From contig CAMGZM010000017.1 of the NCBI GenBank assembly GCA_946183145.1, positions 1-32,450 on the forward strand: DNA of 32,450 nucleotides, given 5' to 3'. The notes below the pieces were generated by a model. It searched no databases. It was not told the origin of the DNA and saw nothing but the letters and a program-made list of their open reading frames with translations. Below, piece after piece: positions 535-32,388 of this stretch. This DNA is from an uncultured Fretibacterium sp. (GTDB taxonomy: Bacteria; Synergistota; Synergistia; Synergistales; Aminobacteriaceae). Numbering within the stretch: position 1 is the stretch's first letter; the number at the start of each line of letters is the position of its first letter. Made by a program: the position numbers and the translations under genes.

Positions 535-1686
535 TCAGCGTTTATTCTCGTAATCCTGTTCAAAGTCCAGAAGCTCGCGAACTTCAACGGCTTTGCACGG
601 AGTCATGTGCGCTAATGAGTTTCGGAATGAACGCAAGAGAGATATATATTCCTTCAGCATAATATCATCAATCTTAACCATGTTTGCGCGGCATATCAGG
701 TGAAACAATCCGCCTATGTCAATGTCCTCAAGGTCTGTTACGGTTTTCCCGTCGCTTTGTGTCATCGGGCTGCCGTGCGACTCAAGATACGACAGCGCGA
801 ACTGAATCCTTCCTGCGAGATTCTCATCACTGCGGATAATTCTTACCCTCGCAAGCTCTATCATCGGGAAAAATACTTGCACTTGCGCCGTCCAGATTCG
901 ACTCATAACGGCTGCTTCATCGTTATCGTTAAGCATTCCGAGAATGTGAGACGAGTCCGCGCTTCTTTCGGGGAAAATGTCAGCAATCATTCTCAGCACG
1001 TCAAGAGGCTCGCTGAATGTGAAATCCGCTGAACGTATGAATCTCTCCGCGACTTCAGCGTCAGATCCGCAAAGCATGGCCGCAAGTGATGAGAGATAAT
1101 GTTTCCAGTTACGGCTATATTGCGGGCGTGAATACTCCTTTGCGTCAAGAAGGAACGAGGCGAAAATCATTGTGTCGTAGCTCTCTGCGTAATCCGAAAA
1201 ATTTACGGCTCTCATTCTTCCTGCTGGCAATAAATTCTCGTACTCAGTATCAAGAATGAAGAGTCCTTTTACGGCTGAGTCTGATGGATATTTAGAGCAG
1301 AAGTTAAGCCAGTCGGAAATCTGCGATTTGTCCCTGAAGTTATGCACCCAAAAAATATGGTTCTTCAGCAAGTTGTTACGCAAAAAAAACTCCTGAACGC
1401 TTGAGAGTCTGCTCCTGTATTTTCGGTTCGTGTCATATTTCGACAGCATGAAATCTTCAGCATTTCCGGGACATTCTGAGCCGGCGTTTATGATTGTGAT
1501 GTAAATATCTCCGCCGGATAAATTCCCGTGAAGAATGTTGCGCATTTTCTCAGGCCACGGGGTGAAGGCAGGCACTCCCAGAATTATGCTGTAACCTTCT
1601 GAGAGCGCGTTTTCGGCGGAATTAATCATCTCGCAAGGCCCTGTGATGTTGTTCCACCAAAAATTTTCGGGGGAAAATTCCTGCAT
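535..1686 (-). CDS. Uncharacterised protein with a C-terminal HEPN-like motif, partner of the large ATPase
   Basis: I do not recognise a named family for this 383-residue protein. It has no signal peptide and no clear membrane segment. The N-terminus has an aromatic box, FWWNNITGP (residues 9-17), then a hydrophobic strand and a loop, SIILGVPAFTPW (33-44), arranged like a degenerate nucleotide-binding fold. Near the C-terminus, within predicted helices, is R355-N-S-L-A-H360. This matches the R-x4-6-H motif of HEPN ribonucleases, where Arg and His sit in the active site, in the usual place near the end of a helical domain. The ATG shares one base with the TAA of the upstream ATPase gene (TAATG), so translation is probably coupled and the products probably act together. 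A metal-independent RNase or toxin-like effector is an inference; HEPN folds can also be non-catalytic. Confidence 0.6.
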   Translation of the reverse strand: MQEFSPENFWWNNITGPCEMINSAENALSEGYSIILGVPAFTPWPEKMRNILHGNLSGGDIYITIINAGSECPGNAEDFMLSKYDTNRKYRSRLSSVQEFFLRNNLLKNHIFWVHNFRDKSQISDWLNFCSKYPSDSAVKGLFILDTEYENLLPAGRMRAVNFSDYAESYDTMIFASFLLDAKEYSRPQYSRNWKHYLSSLAAMLCGSDAEVAERFIRSADFTFSEPLDVLRMIADIFPERSADSSHILGMLNDNDEAAVMSRIWTAQVQVFFPMIELARVRIIRSDENLAGRIQFALSYLESHGSPMTQSDGKTVTDLEDIDIGGLFHLICRANMVKIDDIMLKEYISLLRSFRNSLAHMTPCKAVEVRELLDFEQDYENKR

Positions 1687-4600
1687 TATTCACCTGTCCT
1701 CAAAACTGAGTCTTCATCAGGCCATATTGATTTTACGAACGACTGACGGCGGAATCTGTAGCTCCCGTTCGATAAGCGGCTTAATATTCCCATGTCTGAC
1801 ATCTCGCGCAACATTGCATCATACGCTTCGTAGCTTTCACCCGTCATGCACTGCGTCAATTCTGAGTCGGCCTCTATGATTTCGCTTACGGTGAAGCCCC
1901 TGAATGACCCGGAGTTTTCACCGCCCCCGCTGTAGTGAAGATACGCTATGCACTGTGCGAGCATAAAATATTTGTCGAGGCTCAAAGAGAGTCGCAATGT
2001 GTGAGTCGCTGCCTCTGTGAGTTCCTGAGACGCTATTACGCTTCCGAGCAATGAGTCATCAACGGGGAAAGGCGGCATAATTTCATCGGAGCCGGAATTT
2101 ACGCACCTGTCTGTGAACTTCTCAAGCAATGTATACCCGAAATACTGAATCACACCGGGGTAATAATTCGTCGCGGTCAAAATTGTCTCTAAATGCCTTT
2201 CAGGATCTATTCTGAATCCCAAATATTCGAGCGGCTCAAGAAGCAATCTCTGTGCCTCAAACGGTGAAAGAGGACGGATGCACAGCGCATAACCTAACTG
2301 GCCGAGGGGGTTATTGTCGGCGGCGTATTTCTTTGCGCGCATAACGTTATGAAGCCCCGCAAGGACAAAACGGAATTTGTGTTCAGTGGATTTTCTCAGG
2401 TTCACGAGGGGCAATAAAGGCTCATAGTTTTCACCGCGAATCGAGTCGAGGAACGAGTCAGCCTCATCAAGCAAGAGCATGAATGACGCGGCTTTTTTCG
2501 ACGAGATTAACGACTCTATGTTGTCGCACATGGCCTGAAGCGTGGTGCTTATGCTGAGGAGTCCCGGAACTTTTGCGTTCACGCTGTGTATTATGCTTCT
2601 GACAAAATCAGGCTCGCTGAATCCGTTCTCAAATAATTTCTTGAGTCCGTTCGCTGTCAAATCGCTGTAGAATGCAAACTTCATTTTTTCGGGATTGTGT
2701 TCGAGAGTCTCGGCGCGTCTGAGGAGTGATGTTTTTCCGAGCTGCCTCCCTCCGTAAACGATTGATGATCCTTCAGGGCTGCGAATGTCGGCTAATTCTT
2801 TTTCCCTCCCGTAGAACATTTCAGGCGCGACATATCCGCTTCCTTTCGTGAAGGGAATGCACGACGTATACGGCAATGTACACTGCAGCAACGCCGAAAG
2901 CCTGCCGCTTGTGTCCTGCAATGTGAGAAATAATGCTAATACCCTGTCAACGAGGAGAAAATATTTGTCCTGCCTCCCGTGAGTCCTGAAAGATTTTGCG
3001 AACTGGCTGCGGACGTTTTTGCTTACGTGATAATCCATCAGCAATATTGATGTGCCGGGTTCGCGTTCCATCACGGAGCTTACGATTTTTTCGGGATTAC
3101 CTGAGCCGTAAAGGATAATCACGCTCAAGAAATCCAGTTTTGTGCCGAATTTCGCGATTGGGTGCGAGCAGTTTCGGCCGTCATTCTTCTTCATCGTTAC
3201 GGAGAATATTTCCATGTTCGGGAAATCGGGATTTGCGGTTTCTTTGTGTACGCTGTCTTTTCCTGTTTCGGGGCTGAATCCTAACCCGGCGACAAGCGCG
3301 CGTATCTGTTCCTGCGATGAATTTCCGAGCCGTGAAGGCCAGTTGTCTATTATCGCGGTACGTTCGTCCTTGAGCTTTCGTGAGAGAGTCGGCCATTCTT
3401 CCGGCGGATTGTCCTCGATATAGCTTTTGCCGAGAGATTTCAGAGTCTTTTCTTTGCTCTTGGGCTTGTCGCATTCGGTGTAAAGCTCGTCGAATTTCGT
3501 CATGAACTGCGTGAAAGCGTCAATCTCTGTGCGTTCGCTGTGTACTTCAGGCGCGGGGATTCCCATAGCTTTCGCTGACTCGTAACGGTTGAGATATGAC
3601 TCGGCTGCGTTGAGGCTTCCTTCTTCTGCGAGTGTCAATGCTTCCGCCAAAATTTTCGGGCATTCTCCGCTCGTCTCAATGCAGGATTTTATTTCAGCCG
3701 TAATTCTCCCTTTGCTGACCTCTGAAATGTCTTCCGCGTTAAGCCTTATTGCCTCCAAAAACTGCCGCCAGCATCCGAAATCGCCCCCGGCCATGATGTA
3801 ATCATTCTCAGTGATAAGCGACTTGAGAGTCTCCGCGTCATCCTCCGAGATTCGCCCGAACGCGTAATCAGTATCAATCTTCAGCCTGAAATCCTCCGTG
3901 TATTTCTCTGCTGATTCACGCGCCCTTTTCGCGTCATCGCCCAAATCTGACTCGCGTCCCGTAATCCTGTATATCATTTCGAGCTGGTGAAGATTCTCAT
4001 ACATCGGTGATTTCTCATCGTACAATATTTTCTCTTCTGCCTGTGAAAGTGTGAGCTTCTTTGCGTTTCTGAATCTCATCATATTTCGTATAGGCTCATA
4101 ATATTTCACGTCAGGTATTCCGAGAATGGGCAGTCCGTCATTGCCGATTGGTATTATTCCGTTCGTCAGCAAAACAGCAAAGTATTCAGGCGCGGGGGAA
4201 TTTGTGAGCTTTGCGCGTATGTCCTCAAGCGCCATTATGACGGCTGATTTTCCCGGCTTGCCTTTGAGCTTTGAGACTGCTGACTCTGAGAGTGATAATA
4301 TATCGTTTCTCGCTGAGATTAACGCTTCTGTGTCGAAATTCACCGCTTCAGTTTCAACTGCTGATAACCATTTATGAATTATCGCGAGCCTGACATAAAA
4401 CGCTCTTTCAACGCTCGTACGCAGATTTGAGATTAACGGGCGGACTCTTCCCTGCATTGCCCCTGCTCTTTCGTGCCAGACATCAGCCCAGACTTTATTG
4501 ATGTAATCCTCCATTTTTACGGCTGACATTTTCTCGTTAGGGTCATAATATTTCTCAGCGAATGCGCGAACGTCATCAATTTTGCTTCTGTCATCATCGC

Positions 4601-7145
4601 TTACAGCCTTCAAGCACGGGTAAATCTCGCAGGACGGCCCGAAAAATTCACGCGCGAAAAACGGCAGTACCTTCATGTCCTTGTTGAACGTGGGAATAGA
4701 AAGGAGGCTTTCTGCTTCTGTCTTAATCCGTGAGAGTCCTGTTTCGTGTTTATTTTCACCGGACTTCATGAGGAAATCTTCCGGGAAAATTCCGCATGTC
4801 TTGTGAAACTCGTAAATCCTCGCAAAAACTTTCCGTGCTTCTCTTGCTGACGGGAAAAATGAATCGTAATCCGCGTTAATTTCGTCAAGTCTGCGTTTCA
4901 TCTTGAAATCTGAATAGGGCATCTCAGGAGAAATCATAGCGCGCAAGTATGCCGCAAGCATCAAGCCTTCAGAGACATCATCACCCGCCGGGCTTCCGGG
5001 AAAAATCATCGAGAGCTTTGCGCCGCTGTATTCTGGCGAATCATGAAGAACGTTTGCGGCCATGTCAATTTTCTCTGACAGCTCGGAACATCTCACATTT
5101 TCGGGGATTAACGCCGCCGCTTTTGCCGTAAGCGCTGCCGTAATCAGTGAGGGGTACGGAATTTCTTTGCTCCCTGTGTCTGTGTCATTGAGGAGCGAAA
5201 TTATGTCATCGGCTAAAGTGTCATCGTCAGGGATTTCGGGAATCGATTCGCCTGCGTTCGAGTCTGAGTCATCTTCATGTGAGTCAGAGTCATCATGCGA
5301 GTCAGAGTCATCATGCGAGTCTGAGTCTTCTGCGTGAGAATCTGAGTCATCAGCTGCGATTTCCGGGAGAGATTCAGAGTCACCGGGGTAATTCACGGAG
5401 TCTGAAAGCTCAATTGCGTTTACGTTTTCGGGTTCTTCCGGAAGGTCAGAGGCTGAGTCATTGTCGCTGTCAAAGTTGAAGCCTAACTGCGAGTCAGGGT
5501 CATGAAGCAAATCATCAGGGAGGTAATCAGCATCATCATCAACAATATATTCATCATCATCAACATATTCATCATCATTATCAAGAATTGCTGTTAATCC
5601 TCTGAACATATTACCGCTGCCATCAACGGCAAAAATTTTATCTCTCGTTTCATCATCAAGGCTTTCAAGCACAGGAGATATTTCTTCAAGGCCATTTTTC
5701 GCAACAACAAGCGCGCAGGAGTCCGGCTGACTCTGTGAGACGAATGATATTGCCTCTTCAGGTGAAAAGAACAATGTGCATCTGTACTCTTTATCGTCAA
5801 GGAACAAAGGCACGGACGCTTCATTGAGTGTGCATTTTGTGCCGCTGAGAATTGCGCCGAGCCTGTCAATCATATTGCTGTTCTCACACGCAAACATGTA
5901 ATCCAGTATCATAGAATTTCTCAGAGTAACATTCACAGCGTCATATTCTGAGAGCTCGTTATCCGCGCCGAAAAGGAATTTTCCTACAGCCGGCTCCTTG
6001 TAGCGTTTGCGTACTTCTGCTTTGTCGAGCGAACCTGCAACCCATTTCGTGAGGCAGTAAACATCATCTTCATCATTTCCGCGTGAAAAGAATGACACAG
6101 CTTTTTTTCTCTCTAACCATTCGAGGGCGGTTTTGATTGAGCTGTAGCCGTCTTTCTCAGCCTTGATAGTTTTCTCTGTGATAAATTCTCCGCGTTCCTT
6201 GATGTCTTTGATGCCCTGTGCGATGTAGTAGACTCTGAAGTCAAAAGCCTGCTGAAGCGTCAAGATTCCGTAATGTGAAAATATGTTGAGAAGCTCTATA
6301 GCGTCATGGCCGATTTCGTGTCCTGCACTCATTGCGCTTTTTGCGAGTTCGTCGCGGAATGCTTTTGCGCTGGGCTTCTTGGGTTTTACGGGAGTTCTTG
6401 ACGTGAGAATCTTGCTGTTGAGCCGGGGATTCTCTTCCTGCGTTCCGGGAATTTCTGCGTGAGATTCTGTTTCAGGTTTTGGGGAAATTTCCTGCGATTC
6501 TGATTCGTCTTTTGGCTGAACGGGAATTTTTGCGGGCGCGGGATTTGCGTTTGAGTCCTCACTGTCTATGCTGTATTTTCCTGATGTGAGTCCTATAACT
6601 GTCATGGGCGGGAAAATTTTAGACAGCTCTAAAGTGTGTGATACGTTGCCTTCTGTGATTTCCTGGTCAAGCATCGCAAGAAATTTCTGATACTTCAACG
6701 CTTCATTGAGGGCTGATTTTCTCGCGCTTCCTGTAGGATTCTGCTCCAGCCTTTGCAGTAACTTTTCTGCTTTTTCCTGAACGGGTTTTATCTCCTCGCT
6801 GAATGCCGCCATTGATGATTTGATTCTGATGAAACGCCGCAAGTCATCTTTTGCTAATTCTTCAGCCTCGTTTATGCCTGAAACTATTTCGCGTAACTCT
6901 GAAGCGGATAATTCTTTGCGCGAAATTTCCAGCATGTTCGACTCTGAAGCTATCATTGAGCATACAGACTCGTAAAGTTTGCGCAAGCCTCTCAATGACG
7001 CAAAAAGACTCATAGTCGCGCTTTCTTCAGGGGAATAACCTTCTTTGAGTTTCATATCGACATCAAGAAGAATCTTCCGCGCATCTTCCGTAAGTTTTTG
7101 GAACTTGTCAAGCTCGGAAAAAATTTGCTGCTGTATGTCCTGCAT
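1686..7145 (-). CDS. Giant multidomain P-loop ATPase (STAND/AAA-like), 1819 residues
   Basis: Visible regions in order are: a helical, coiled-coil-like N-terminus (about 1-170); a Pro/Glu/Ser linker (about 185-245); a possible winged-helix region (about 250-360); a small alpha/beta region; a very acidic, low-complexity segment with DSDSH repeats (about 520-650); a long helical middle; and a C-terminal ATPase. The ATPase has the entry box EMFYGRE (1442-1448), Walker A GGRQLGKT (1465-1472), Walker B LLLDEAD with D1560 and E1561, and a later strand FRFVLAGL, followed by probable winged-helix segments. This order resembles archaeal-ATPase, STAND or ORC-like NTPases. No nuclease motif is evident. 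The start is ATG 7145: AAGGAG lies 7 bases upstream, whereas the longer frame to 7259 runs over the promoter. It heads an operon with the HEPN-like gene and may act as its sensor or regulator (inference). Confidence 0.75.
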   Translation of the reverse strand: MQDIQQQIFSELDKFQKLTEDARKILLDVDMKLKEGYSPEESATMSLFASLRGLRKLYESVCSMIASESNMLEISRKELSASELREIVSGINEAEELAKDDLRRFIRIKSSMAAFSEEIKPVQEKAEKLLQRLEQNPTGSARKSALNEALKYQKFLAMLDQEITEGNVSHTLELSKIFPPMTVIGLTSGKYSIDSEDSNANPAPAKIPVQPKDESESQEISPKPETESHAEIPGTQEENPRLNSKILTSRTPVKPKKPSAKAFRDELAKSAMSAGHEIGHDAIELLNIFSHYGILTLQQAFDFRVYYIAQGIKDIKERGEFITEKTIKAEKDGYSSIKTALEWLERKKAVSFFSRGNDEDDVYCLTKWVAGSLDKAEVRKRYKEPAVGKFLFGADNELSEYDAVNVTLRNSMILDYMFACENSNMIDRLGAILSGTKCTLNEASVPLFLDDKEYRCTLFFSPEEAISFVSQSQPDSCALVVAKNGLEEISPVLESLDDETRDKIFAVDGSGNMFRGLTAILDNDDEYVDDDEYIVDDDADYLPDDLLHDPDSQLGFNFDSDNDSASDLPEEPENVNAIELSDSVNYPGDSESLPEIAADDSDSHAEDSDSHDDSDSHDDSDSHEDDSDSNAGESIPEIPDDDTLADDIISLLNDTDTGSKEIPYPSLITAALTAKAAALIPENVRCSELSEKIDMAANVLHDSPEYSGAKLSMIFPGSPAGDDVSEGLMLAAYLRAMISPEMPYSDFKMKRRLDEINADYDSFFPSAREARKVFARIYEFHKTCGIFPEDFLMKSGENKHETGLSRIKTEAESLLSIPTFNKDMKVLPFFAREFFGPSCEIYPCLKAVSDDDRSKIDDVRAFAEKYYDPNEKMSAVKMEDYINKVWADVWHERAGAMQGRVRPLISNLRTSVERAFYVRLAIIHKWLSAVETEAVNFDTEALISARNDILSLSESAVSKLKGKPGKSAVIMALEDIRAKLTNSPAPEYFAVLLTNGIIPIGNDGLPILGIPDVKYYEPIRNMMRFRNAKKLTLSQAEEKILYDEKSPMYENLHQLEMIYRITGRESDLGDDAKRARESAEKYTEDFRLKIDTDYAFGRISEDDAETLKSLITENDYIMAGGDFGCWRQFLEAIRLNAEDISEVSKGRITAEIKSCIETSGECPKILAEALTLAEEGSLNAAESYLNRYESAKAMGIPAPEVHSERTEIDAFTQFMTKFDELYTECDKPKSKEKTLKSLGKSYIEDNPPEEWPTLSRKLKDERTAIIDNWPSRLGNSSQEQIRALVAGLGFSPETGKDSVHKETANPDFPNMEIFSVTMKKNDGRNCSHPIAKFGTKLDFLSVIILYGSGNPEKIVSSVMEREPGTSILLMDYHVSKNVRSQFAKSFRTHGRQDKYFLLVDRVLALFLTLQDTSGRLSALLQCTLPYTSCIPFTKGSGYVAPEMFYGREKELADIRSPEGSSIVYGGRQLGKTSLLRRAETLEHNPEKMKFAFYSDLTANGLKKLFENGFSEPDFVRSIIHSVNAKVPGLLSISTTLQAMCDNIESLISSKKAASFMLLLDEADSFLDSIRGENYEPLLPLVNLRKSTEHKFRFVLAGLHNVMRAKKYAADNNPLGQLGYALCIRPLSPFEAQRLLLEPLEYLGFRIDPERHLETILTATNYYPGVIQYFGYTLLEKFTDRCVNSGSDEIMPPFPVDDSLLGSVIASQELTEAATHTLRLSLSLDKYFMLAQCIAYLHYSGGGENSGSFRGFTVSEIIEADSELTQCMTGESYEAYDAMLREMSDMGILSRLSNGSYRFRRQSFVKSIWPDEDSVLRTGE
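5281..5334. repeat. 18-bp in-frame repeat within the ATPase gene
   Basis: Two perfect 18-bp copies (5281-5298 and 5299-5316) are followed by a diverged copy (5317-5334), with further partial copies on both sides. On the coding strand each unit adds six acidic and Ser/His residues of the DSDSHD type. Changes in copy number would keep the frame and only lengthen or shorten the acidic linker. Confidence 0.85.
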
Positions 7146-7177
7146 ATCAAGACTCCTTTTGTAATGGGATATGTGAA

Positions 7178-7205
7178 ATTCTAAACACGAAAGCCGAAAA
7201 GTGAA
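7178..7205 (-). promoter_or_regulatory. Putative promoter of the ATPase/HEPN operon
   Basis: Reading the minus strand, a TTCACT -35 box (7205-7200) and a TAGAAT -10 box (7183-7178) are 16 bases apart. The -10 matches consensus at five of six positions and the -35 at four. The start codon at 7145 lies about 33 bases beyond the -10 box, with a good ribosome-binding site between. It overlaps the region feeding flgB on the other strand. Confidence 0.45.
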
Positions 7206-7210
7206 TAGTG

Positions 7211-7216
7211 TATAAT
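7211..7216 (+). promoter_or_regulatory. Putative -10 box upstream of flgB
   Basis: A perfect TATAAT lies 45 bases before the flgB start. No convincing -35 hexamer is seen 16-18 bases upstream, so the promoter may depend on an activator or another sigma factor. It lies only a few bases from the -35 box of the divergent ATPase promoter, so the two may compete. Confidence 0.3.
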
Positions 7217-7260
7217 TACGGTAAAATTCAGCAGACAAAAGAACAAAGGAGTGATGCAAA

Positions 7261-19407: not shown

Positions 19408-20334
19408 TCACTGGTGAGCCTCCCAGAATTTCACGGCGTTGTTCAGCCATCCTTCAGCGGCTGTATTTTCGCCAAGCCCGAAGCCGTGAGGAAGTCCCGG
19501 AAAAATCTCAAGCATCGCATCAGTTCCGTTAGCTTTGATTCTGTTCACGTAAGACTGCACTGACCTATAGGGGGCTATTCCGTCTGATGTTCCAACACAG
19601 GCATATGTAGGAGGCTAACGCCCGGTGATTTCCGAAAGCCCGGTGTACTGCATTATTACAGCAGCGGGACGGGGATATGACTTTCCGATGAATGACTCAG
19701 TTCCGTATGAGCCGAGCCACGCCGACATTCTCGCACCCGCAGAGCCTCCCCACAATGAATAGCCGCTCACGTCAACGCCCAAATCATTCGCGTGTTCATG
19801 TATGAATGCTATTGCCCTCGCTAAGTCCTCGCAAGCCGTATCAGCTCCCGGCCTGTATATCAATGCGAAAGCGTTATAGCCCCTGCGTGAAAGCTCCAAT
19901 GCGTGAGGGAAGCTGTCATGAATCGCTCCGACAAAAACGAATCCTCCTCCGGCGTTGCAGACCGCGAATTTTGCGCCGCGTTTACCCCTGAAGAAAAACA
20001 GCCCCGTAACTTTTGAGCGTGAATCATCGTCGGGATATATGCGGTAAAATATCTGCCTGCCGTCATTCACCTAGTCAAGCATATGATTTATCACGTCAGC
20101 AGTTCTTGAAGGGTTAATGCAGCTGTACCATGTCAGGCGCAAATCACCCAATGTTTTGCCGCTGTAATAATATTCGTCAAGCGGGAAAATCATCCGTCCG
20201 TAATTCCCGAATGCAGGATTATTCACAACGTCAGAAATTTTTGTGCTGACATTAACTTTTTCACGCGCAAAAGCCGCCCCGCCCGCAGCAATACACAGAA
20301 GCAGGGCAGCAGACATTCTCATCAAGATATTCAT
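19408..20334 (-). pseudogene. Exported alpha/beta hydrolase interrupted by two in-frame TAG codons
   Basis: A single frame of 308 positions runs from ATG 20334 to TGA 19408 and is interrupted only by TAG at codon 88 (20071-20073) and codon 240 (19615-19617). No frameshift is present and similarity to the esterase fold continues through both. A signal peptide ends near AFA (residues 21-23). The oxyanion loop NAGGGF, nucleophile motif WGGSAG (Ser198), a candidate aspartate in GTSDG (Asp251) and histidine in GLPHGFG (His283) are all intact, but the last two lie after the second TAG, so the truncated products would be inactive. The ATG overlaps the upstream carboxylesterase stop by 4 bases. Two amber mutations in a recently dead gene are the plain explanation; amber readthrough is the alternative. 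Confidence 0.85.
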
Positions 20335-21917
20335 TCCGTCAAAAGTTTCAACAGTTCATCATCATGATGATTCACTAATACAGGCACATCATCAAATATC
20401 ATTGTCGCGCCGTTCTCAGGGGTATACGCTTCCCATCCCGGGCTGCCTGTTCTCGCAAAGTCTATCCACGCCTGACTCATTTTGTCCGCGAGTGCCTGAG
20501 CTTTTTCTCCGCCGCCTGTAGCTTTCTCGCTGAGGGCTATATTATTGAACACAAACGGAAGTTCGGAGCAGTGATACGCCATCGCATAGCCGCCCATTAT
20601 AGGAGTCTCCCACGTGAATATATATGCGTAAACGGGTGCGGGCTGTTTTGCTTTCGTGTTGAGAGTCTCAATAGTTCCGAGACGCAGCCACGAATCAACA
20701 TAGAGAGAGTCTACGGCCTTTTTCCATGTGTACGCCTTGAGGAACGCCGCTGTAATTTTGTCTGTCTTGTCGCCGAAACGTTCACGGAGTTTTGCTGACG
20801 TTTCAGAGTCGTCCCAGAAATTTTTATTGTCGCTCTGAGCCGCTGCCATTTTCGGGACAAATTCACGGATTGTTATCCATTCATTAAGCACAGATCCGGC
20901 CATGAGGGGAATATCTTTTGTCCATTCACTGAAGCCGCCTCTTACCGGATCTTTAGGGATATAATCTCCGTCCTTGACTGGTGCCCACGAGATTTTGACC
21001 TCAGCAAGTGCTTTTCTTCCGGCCATGTCGAGACGCTCAAAGGGAATATCTTTCAGGCTGTCGACATTCGCGGGGTCAATGCCCAGATCCGCAAGCACTA
21101 ATTCCGCGACTCTGCGTGAAATTTTCTGATCCGGCAATGTTATTCCCATCATCTGAACCGCGCCGCTCTGCTCGATTGCCTTGTGGAAGAGTCCTTTTGC
21201 TGACGGCATAGACATTAGTGTTAAAATTTTCGCCCCGCCTCCTGACTGACCGAACAGCGTAACATTATCCGGGTCGCCTCCGAAATGTGATATATTGTCC
21301 TTTACCCATTCGAGAGCCGCAACGATGTCCATCATACCGAGATTGCCGGAATACTTGTACTTTTCGCCGTAAGCAGACAAATCAAGAAAGCCCATAATAT
21401 TCAGCCTGTGATTTAAGCTGACGACTACGAGATTTCCTTTACGGGATAAATTTTCACCGCGAAAAACATCCTCAGCAAGCGATGACCCCGCCTCGAATCC
21501 TCCGCCGTGAAGCCAAACCATTACGGGGCGTTTTACGTCATCAAGTCCGGGAGTCCAGATGTTAAGATTCTGGCAGCTGTTATCCTGCGGGTAATTCCTT
21601 CCTTCCCACAAAGGCCAGTAATAATGAACGGGGAACATGTCATTTTCGGGCTTAATGTTCTGCGGGGACATAGAGCCGTAATTCAGCGCGAGTTTCACGC
21701 CGTCCCATGATGAGACTTTTACCGGGGGCATGAATGGCTCTGCTGTTGCGTACTGGACTCCGTGATACGTGAATATTCCGTCTCGTATGAAGCCCTGAAG
21801 TTTTCCGTTCTCCGTCTCTGCTACAGCTATTCCCGGCCCTGCGAGAATTTCAGCTGATGATATGCCTGACAGAGAAAGCGCAATCACAAGAGAAAGCGCA
21901 AATATTTTCCTCATCAT
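20331..21917 (-). CDS. Exported type-B carboxylesterase
   Basis: A 528-residue carboxylesterase/para-nitrobenzyl-esterase family protein that hydrolyses carboxylic esters. The signal peptide covers about residues 1-22. Motifs in order are an early region ending FTYHGVQYA, QNLNIWTPG, the oxyanion loop VWLHGGGF (to residue 141), the nucleophile motif LFGQSGGG with Ser225, and the histidine region AYHCSELPFVF. The nucleophile elbow is GQSGG rather than the usual GESAGG. The protein should act in the periplasm or outside the cell. It starts 3 bases after the upstream hydrolase gene and overlaps the next by 4 bases. The natural ester is unknown; acetylated or feruloylated plant sugars are an inference from the neighbouring sugar genes. 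Confidence 0.88.
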   Translation of the reverse strand: MMRKIFALSLVIALSLSGISSAEILAGPGIAVAETENGKLQGFIRDGIFTYHGVQYATAEPFMPPVKVSSWDGVKLALNYGSMSPQNIKPENDMFPVHYYWPLWEGRNYPQDNSCQNLNIWTPGLDDVKRPVMVWLHGGGFEAGSSLAEDVFRGENLSRKGNLVVVSLNHRLNIMGFLDLSAYGEKYKYSGNLGMMDIVAALEWVKDNISHFGGDPDNVTLFGQSGGGAKILTLMSMPSAKGLFHKAIEQSGAVQMMGITLPDQKISRRVAELVLADLGIDPANVDSLKDIPFERLDMAGRKALAEVKISWAPVKDGDYIPKDPVRGGFSEWTKDIPLMAGSVLNEWITIREFVPKMAAAQSDNKNFWDDSETSAKLRERFGDKTDKITAAFLKAYTWKKAVDSLYVDSWLRLGTIETLNTKAKQPAPVYAYIFTWETPIMGGYAMAYHCSELPFVFNNIALSEKATGGGEKAQALADKMSQAWIDFARTGSPGWEAYTPENGATMIFDDVPVLVNHHDDELLKLLTE

Positions 21918-21920
21918 AAT

Positions 21921-22964
21921 TTACATCCCCTTTGACTTGAGCCATTCAGCGACATGTTCAGCAACGACATCATTATTCTTGTCCTGAAAGATGAAATGTT
22001 CATTGCCCGTAATGCCGATTTTCGGAAGGTCTATAACTGTGCAGTCGCCCCCGTGTTTGTTGACGCATTCCGCAAACTTGAACGCCATAGCCCTGACTCC
22101 GCGCCAGTAATCACGCGATGGAATCTCTACAGGCTCATCGGGTATGAAGTCGCCGAAATAAATTATGATTGGCTGGTCGATGAGTTTTGCGAAATTTTCG
22201 GGTGATACTGCCTGCGCTCTTACAGGTGCGTAATTCGTGGGAATATTTTCGGGAGTCTCGCCTTCAGGGAAATAGAACAATCCGCCCGGCTCAACTGCAA
22301 CTACAGCCTTCACTTTGTCGGACTCAATCGCGATATTCCAGCCGGGGATTCCTCCCTGCGAGTGAGTGAAGAGAATCCCATTTCCGCAACGCTCAAAGAT
22401 TTCCACAAACGCCGCGACAATCACATTCACGTCAAAATCGCCTGTGTTGGGAGTCATCTGCCGGAAAAACTGATTGAGGCTCTCCTGGTCATCGGGGAAC
22501 TGCGAACCCTCGTATGTTTTCGGCCAGAGTCCTATACGGAACTGCGTGTACCAGTTCTGATCCTGCATGAGAGTCGAAATCTCTGCTGCTTTGCTTGTCT
22601 GTCCTGCCTCGCCTCTTCTGGGCTGGTCAACGAGATAAACCCCGTAGCCTTTGCGGAGAAATATATCGCTCCATCCCGGGCGGCCGTCGGGAGTCGTCAT
22701 CCATCCCATTCGCGATTGTCCGTAGCCGTGAAGGAACACCATCGGCAACTTGCTGTTTCCTTCTGGAATCTGGTAGAGAACATTTGCGTGGTCAGCGTGG
22801 TGAGTCTGGCCTTTCGGGTCAAACTGTCCGTGAACAGGGTCAAATGTCCCGTCCGTTGAAAGAACAACACCGCCCGCCGAAAATATTCCCTGCTCTTTGA
22901 TGTTAAGAGCGTGAGAAGGAACAGCAAGCGACAACAACATTAACGCGCATAAAAATTTCTTCAT
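21921..22964 (-). CDS. Exported alpha/beta hydrolase (esterase)
   Basis: A 347-residue alpha/beta hydrolase with a signal peptide ending at about SHA (residues 17-19). It shows the oxyanion region VFLHGYGQS (residues 77-84), the nucleophile motif THSQGG with Ser202, and a C-terminal histidine in GNEHFIFQDKNN. A ribosome-binding site AAGGAGGAG lies close to the ATG. It is the first gene of a three-hydrolase operon read from a promoter with a 19-base spacer next to a divergent MerR-type regulator, so it is probably induced by that regulator. The substrate cannot be stated; an esterase or lipase is likely. Confidence 0.85.
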   Translation of the reverse strand: MKKFLCALMLLSLAVPSHALNIKEQGIFSAGGVVLSTDGTFDPVHGQFDPKGQTHHADHANVLYQIPEGNSKLPMVFLHGYGQSRMGWMTTPDGRPGWSDIFLRKGYGVYLVDQPRRGEAGQTSKAAEISTLMQDQNWYTQFRIGLWPKTYEGSQFPDDQESLNQFFRQMTPNTGDFDVNVIVAAFVEIFERCGNGILFTHSQGGIPGWNIAIESDKVKAVVAVEPGGLFYFPEGETPENIPTNYAPVRAQAVSPENFAKLIDQPIIIYFGDFIPDEPVEIPSRDYWRGVRAMAFKFAECVNKHGGDCTVIDLPKIGITGNEHFIFQDKNNDVVAEHVAEWLKSKGM

Positions 22965-30564: not shown

Positions 30565-32346
30565 TTATTGCCTCTTGAAAATATCCATTGCCGTTTTGAT
30601 TTCAGTGCCGAATGTCATAGAAAGGTGATTTATGAACGTACTTAATATTCGGTCTGTATATTGGCTGTCAGACTTGAAGAAGTAATTTGCGCTTGTTGTT
30701 ATGCCGTCGAAATAAGCGGCTCTGTAAGAGTCTGCCGTAATTATCACTATGATTTTTACCAGCTTGTTCAATTTCTCGTTTATGTCATCGCCCGTATAAT
30801 TCGATATGAAACTGCCGTAAACAAAATCCCTGCTTTTGGCAATATTTTTGTCCTGCAAAAGCTCCTGTTCTGTAATATCACCGTTAGCGAGCCTGTACAC
30901 GATACCGAGAAGCGCGAAAATTACCTGTGTGCCGTTTTTCATTATGCTGACTTGTTCAGAATTAAGCCCTGATTTTTTCAGCTCAGTTGTTACTGTGATG
31001 TACCTGCCGTAAAGCTGTATTAAGTCAACGAGGAATGCTTTTTTGTCCGCGTCTTTTTCATAGTTGACTCTGAACACGCTGTTATACAGTCTGGGAGACT
31101 CAAAAATCTTTTTGGTGCTGTTTCTTGCGACTCCTGGGATCTGGTTGACCATAGACAGAATTAACTGCGCGAGCACGTCATTTTTCACGGAATATGCTGG
31201 CTTGAATCCTCTGGGCTTCTTTGCGCCGCGTTTGATTTCAAGATATATGCCGTTATACTGAAGCATTCTTGCGAGCCGGATCATTTCAGGCGAATTTGAT
31301 TTCAAGTCTCTTGGGAGTATGGGCTTCTGCGAGTTCGTAGCTTCTGCTATTTTTGTGGCGAAAGGAATTTCAGACTGTCTTTTTTTCTCGGCGACTATCT
31401 TGCAGGGGATATAGAACACTTCAGAATTTGCGCCTTTGTATTCACCGATGAGATAAGTTGTCTGTCCTCCGTTGACGATGGAAAAATTCGTGAGATTTAT
31501 CCTGCTTCCGTCAATGGTAAAATCCTCGCAGGCTATAACGATTCCGTTGTTGAGAAACCAGAAATCCCCTCTGTTTTTGCTGAGAGTCGCTTTAATTTTG
31601 TCGTCAACAAGCTGATTGCGGATGTAGCGGCGTATGTTCATGTCAAACAGTCCTTTAGAGGCAAATTTATTGTATAAGGCTCTCAAGGAAGTTGATTTTA
31701 CGTTGACTAAAATTCCTTCAGCGTGTTCTGTATCATACTGAAGAACATTTCCCGGCTTGTCGATCTCAAGTTTTGCGGAAGGAACTGTAATAATTTCCGA
31801 GAGTTTTTCCTGAATTTTCTTCTCGATGTCCTCGCACGCATAAACCGACACAGAAAATTTTGCGAGGTCAGGAATGTCATTAGCCAGCTTTGTGAGCATG
31901 TCTTCAATGTCATTGATATTTGCCGACGTGAAGAAAGCGATCTCAATATTATCTTGCTCGTCATCCGGCAGACGGTCTAAGAAATTCTGCAAAGTCCGCT
32001 TGACATTTTCATTATATGCTCCTGTGTTGCCTTTCCTGAAGTTGTTGACAGTATCACAAATTTTGTCGAACTCGTTTCTTATATCGCCGTATGAAATATT
32101 TTCTGTATATTTTGACTGGCATATGAATAGCTTTGATTCCTCGTCATCGAAGTACAGAAAATCGACTCCGCCGTCATTCGCCCCGTCGGTAACGCAGTCA
32201 TATTTGTCGTCAAAATCTTTTACATCGAAAAAGTACGTGAGAAGCACATAACTGAAAGCCCTGTCATCAGGAACATCTGAAGATTTGTTTTGCTGAAATT
32301 CTTTGCGGGCTTTAGTTGTCTCAACTTTCAGGATTTCACTAGGCAT
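30565..32346 (-). CDS. AIPR-family protein with N-terminal restriction-nuclease-like motif
   Basis: A 593-residue protein of the AIPR (abortive infection phage resistance) family. The core motifs are FWFLNNGI (residues 262-269) and SIVNGGQTTYLI (289-300), followed by IPFATKIAEATNSQKPI, all typical of the family. The N-terminal part has GGVDFLYF with Asp62 and CQSKY with Gln77 and Lys79, a D...QxK arrangement as in Mrr-type PD-(D/E)xK nucleases. Members are associated with phage resistance and often lie in defence islands, some beside restriction-modification genes; here no methylase or helicase is adjacent. The start is ATG 32346 with GGAG 10 bases upstream; TTG 32355 lies too close to that site. 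A cytoplasmic nuclease acting on phage or modified DNA is an inference. Confidence 0.85.
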   Translation of the reverse strand: MPSEILKVETTKARKEFQQNKSSDVPDDRAFSYVLLTYFFDVKDFDDKYDCVTDGANDGGVDFLYFDDEESKLFICQSKYTENISYGDIRNEFDKICDTVNNFRKGNTGAYNENVKRTLQNFLDRLPDDEQDNIEIAFFTSANINDIEDMLTKLANDIPDLAKFSVSVYACEDIEKKIQEKLSEIITVPSAKLEIDKPGNVLQYDTEHAEGILVNVKSTSLRALYNKFASKGLFDMNIRRYIRNQLVDDKIKATLSKNRGDFWFLNNGIVIACEDFTIDGSRINLTNFSIVNGGQTTYLIGEYKGANSEVFYIPCKIVAEKKRQSEIPFATKIAEATNSQKPILPRDLKSNSPEMIRLARMLQYNGIYLEIKRGAKKPRGFKPAYSVKNDVLAQLILSMVNQIPGVARNSTKKIFESPRLYNSVFRVNYEKDADKKAFLVDLIQLYGRYITVTTELKKSGLNSEQVSIMKNGTQVIFALLGIVYRLANGDITEQELLQDKNIAKSRDFVYGSFISNYTGDDINEKLNKLVKIIVIITADSYRAAYFDGITTSANYFFKSDSQYTDRILSTFINHLSMTFGTEIKTAMDIFKRQ

Positions 32347-32388
32347 ACAAGACAATCTCCAATATGAATAAATTTTTAGGATAAATGA

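Follow-up and report, generated by a model that had tools for sequence, protein, structure and literature searches.

Esterases of the BD-FAE and Abhydrolase_3 families (PF20434 and PF07859) share with the gene analyzed here the fold family and the GxSxG nucleophile motif, as judged from weak profile matches. Intact orthologues from Synergistaceae, such as those in RGIG4945 (L085) and in an uncultured Fretibacterium sp. (L087), resemble it in length, catalytic motifs, and position after a carboxylesterase gene, and are 75–81% identical to it. These orthologues, however, contain no in-frame stop, and the two positions taken by TAG codons in the focal gene, residues 88 and 240, are Gln or Glu in them. 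In-frame TAG within a coherent frame is also a feature of pyrrolysine proteins, for example, MttB-type methyltransferases. The focal gene differs from them in belonging to an unrelated family, in carrying two TAGs at Gln/Glu sites, and in residing in a genome in which PylS, PylB, and a CUA tRNA were not detected. Among the titles listed by literature searches, none was a report on the focal gene or on pyrrolysine in the genus.

The focal gene occupies positions 20334–19408 on the minus strand of the window, the whole analyzed stretch of 32,450 nucleotides. Translation of the window gave a single frame of 309 codons including the final TGA, starting with ATG at 20334 and ending at 19410–19408, without any frameshift. 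Two in-frame TAG codons were located at codon 88 (20071–20073) and codon 240 (19615–19617), both on the minus strand. The N-terminus contained a signal-peptide-like stretch. The GGSAG nucleophile motif (Ser198) precedes the second TAG, and the TSDGIA (Asp251) and LPHGFG (His283) motifs both lie beyond it, so that the Ser-Asp-His triad is in canonical order; all three residues were invariant across the orthologue alignment. Re-translation thus reproduced what had been described in the initial annotation, namely, an otherwise unbroken frame that has two TAGs, ends in TGA, and retains every catalytic motif, two of them after the second TAG. Pfam searches yielded BD-FAE and Abhydrolase_3 with E-values of 4.2e-7 and 2.3e-6, respectively, and an alignment with the esterase 6a6o in the PDB covered the Ser and His motifs. 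None of the NCBIfam equivalogs matched the protein at the cut-off. The correspondence of the frame to one gene is far beyond chance, and by its sequence the gene belongs to the alpha/beta-hydrolase family, with the product predicted to be an esterase.

The window corresponds to contig C17 of a genome of 2.55 Mb in 25 contigs, which was rated 100% complete and is probably a metagenome-assembled genome (MAG). The closest named records were Synergistaceae MAGs, most of them from ruminants. Based on Pfam and neighbor comparison, an intact carboxylesterase gene (COesterase; 20331–21917, minus strand) lies directly upstream and overlaps the focal start by ATGA, and it is preceded by an intact alpha/beta hydrolase gene (21921–22964, minus strand), the first in an apparent operon. 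The focal gene lies at the 3′ end of this apparent operon of three hydrolase genes, and the host is a rumen-type member of the Synergistaceae. The carboxylesterase gene adjoins the focal gene in nearly all relatives, as does the first hydrolase gene in several, and some relatives, including L087, have an extra hydrolase-like gene between these genes. Promoter and terminator scans gave signals no higher than the chance level. The remaining main genes in the window are open frames. Among them, the gene at 30565–32355 (minus strand) encodes an intact AIPR/AbiU-like abortive-infection protein (Pfam AIPR, 4.4e-30; PADLOC AbiU, 1.5e-39), and the gene at 1686–7259 (minus strand) encodes a protein of 1857 amino acid residues that has an AAA ATPase domain at its C-terminus and also contains an acidic stretch of Asp/Ser/His repeats. 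The latter is adjoined by a gene for a 383-residue protein (535–1686), and no defence model matched either of these two proteins.

Among 24 genomes of the same genus, 11 carried a full-length open orthologue and two carried a partial one cut by a contig end; in the other 11, some of which are incomplete, a strong match was missing. A second, intact paralogous copy was searched for in the focal genome and none was found. The orthologue alignment spanned the whole focal length at about 68–81% identity, and none of the 87 relatives, sampled as the best-scoring matches, contained an in-frame stop. Most close relatives carried Gln or Glu at residue 88, which varied more widely in distant ones, and residue 240 was Glu in 84 and Asp in three of the 87 relatives. 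Both TAG sites differ from the catalytic residues. The genome of RGIG4945 carries a second copy at L157:6001–6852, with 70% identity to the focal protein, and relatives at about 60–68% identity are widespread in Firmicutes; the family may have been duplicated or transferred among gut bacteria.

None of the 44 tRNAs found with the Rfam model had a CUA anticodon when each anticodon was read, and ARAGORN likewise detected no such tRNA in 1.45 Mb. Profile searches of the genome for PylS and PylB gave nothing above the cut-off. Two frames, of 820 and 662 amino acid residues, matched the PylS C-terminal model at only 24 and 22 bits, respectively (cut-off, 178); most control genomes gave the same matches, which are probably ordinary synthetases. 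For PylB, with a cut-off of 348 bits, the matches reached 132 and 97 bits and were consistent with related radical-SAM enzymes. The PylS N-terminal domain was absent from the focal genome and 40 relatives, and the Methanosarcina control was positive. Release factor 1 (RF1), the factor that terminates translation at UAG, is encoded in the genome (538 bits). A selenocysteine tRNA, which reads TGA, was located at L079:8468–8565 (G000:C2, about 108468), and TGA may be recoded as selenocysteine at some codons in this genome.

The usage of TAG was surveyed in stretches amounting to 1.45 Mb, about 57% of the genome. TAG terminated 124 of the 584 long open frames in this sample. In the window, it ends galM, ispE, araD, the gene for an SDR dehydrogenase, and that for the second binding protein, as previously annotated, and also one ABC ATPase gene. 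Selection by coding score yielded 31 candidate in-frame TAGs in the same 1.45 Mb, each flanked on either side by coding-like sequence. Except for the two in the focal gene, these were followed by ATG at most 19 codons downstream or, once, by GTG with a preceding Shine-Dalgarno sequence, and they look like boundaries of tandem genes; no further in-frame TAG unlike a gene boundary was present in the 1.45 Mb. These results bear out the earlier argument against wholesale reassignment of TAG. A handful of similar frame interruptions by TAA or TGA occurred elsewhere in the genome, indicating that interruption is not special to TAG. Three of these frames, at C1:380929 (+), C5:50493 (−), and C4:147433 (+) of the focal genome, comprise, as named by eye, a Sel1-repeat-like protein and a TPR-like protein interrupted by TAA, and a probably secreted protein interrupted by TGA; they are either pseudogenes or true gene ends.

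The initial annotation regarded it as notable that both interruptions are amber. A count of every single-base route to a stop, made in the focal sequence as well as in related ones, put the probability that two nonsense mutations would both be TAG at about 0.11–0.18 and the probability that they would be the same stop at about 1/3. The coincidence thus needs no special cause. When a codon model was allowed its own omega on the focal branch, the estimate there was 0.32, compared with 0.107 in the background (2ΔlnL = 10.6). The focal value, the highest among all branches tested, was significantly below 1 (2ΔlnL = 7.1). Besides the stops, five of 151 conserved positions were altered in the focal sequence. 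For the intact neighboring carboxylesterase gene, used as a control, omega on the same branch was 0.20 versus 0.12 (2ΔlnL = 8.1). Part of the rise may therefore be lineage-wide, and relaxed selection on the focal gene is only suggestive. The omega values and altered positions of the focal sequence would fit a gene that was under constraint for a long time and recently came under relaxed selection.

These results indicate that the focal gene is very probably a young nonsense pseudogene of a secreted alpha/beta-hydrolase (esterase). It is homologous to intact genes yet has premature stops, and no means of decoding the stops was found. The lack of a CUA anticodon among the tRNAs found and the plain Gln or Glu at both sites in homologues are the observations that had been named beforehand as supporting a simple pseudogene; among the options offered at that time, the results favor recent pseudogenization and lend no support to readthrough through a suppressor tRNA or pyrrolysine. 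Two independent nonsense mutations would have placed UAG at the Gln/Glu position 88 and the Glu position 240, and RF1 would stop translation at codon 88, leaving an inactive fragment of 87 residues (20074–20334, minus strand) predicted to contain only the signal peptide and the N-terminal region. Restart at the GTG adjoining the first TAG was rejected, since no Shine-Dalgarno sequence is present and the 151-residue product would lack the signal peptide and the catalytic Asp and His. A gene boundary at the first TAG was also rejected despite the adjacent GTG, since homology to the orthologues continues straight across it. The good preservation of the rest of the gene, with all catalytic motifs, no frameshift, and an omega significantly below 1, counts against a pseudogene, and the inactivation must accordingly be recent.

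The conserved remainder of the frame and the probable MAG origin of an assembly in 25 contigs would also fit a consensus error, in which the real gene is intact or the consensus mixes strains. This is unlikely, because it would take two independent base errors, both nonsense, in a single gene of a window whose other main genes are open, and because the raised omega and the five changed conserved positions fit real decay. The perfect frame, the catalytic residues past the second TAG, and the possible recoding of TGA in the same genome are compatible with a suppressor tRNA or pyrrolysine allowing amber readthrough to the full-length enzyme. This possibility is nevertheless very remote, given the absence of a CUA anticodon among the 44 tRNAs found, the subthreshold PylS and PylB matches, the presence of RF1, the common use of TAG as a normal stop with no other candidate in the 1.45 Mb, and the noncatalytic Gln/Glu sites. 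Gene-specific readthrough yielding an active esterase in the focal species without a recognizable CUA tRNA or pyl genes is extremely improbable. Trace active enzyme might be retained in the population by low-level UAG leakage through near-cognate tRNAs or by strain polymorphism, and site 88, occupied by Gln or Glu in relatives, would tolerate Gln. However, leakage would be needed twice per message, resulting in a negligible yield in bacteria, and nothing in the sequence points to a switch, making this explanation highly doubtful.

The focal gene, as a probable young pseudogene, seems to be dispensable, because 11 of the 24 same-genus genomes, some of them incomplete, lack a strong match, and its decay seems to have begun. 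The in-frame ambers here need no new decoding, and a pseudogene call suffices. The locus provides a small example of accessory hydrolase loss in a gut Synergistaceae genus, with no copy seen in about half of the genomes sampled from it.
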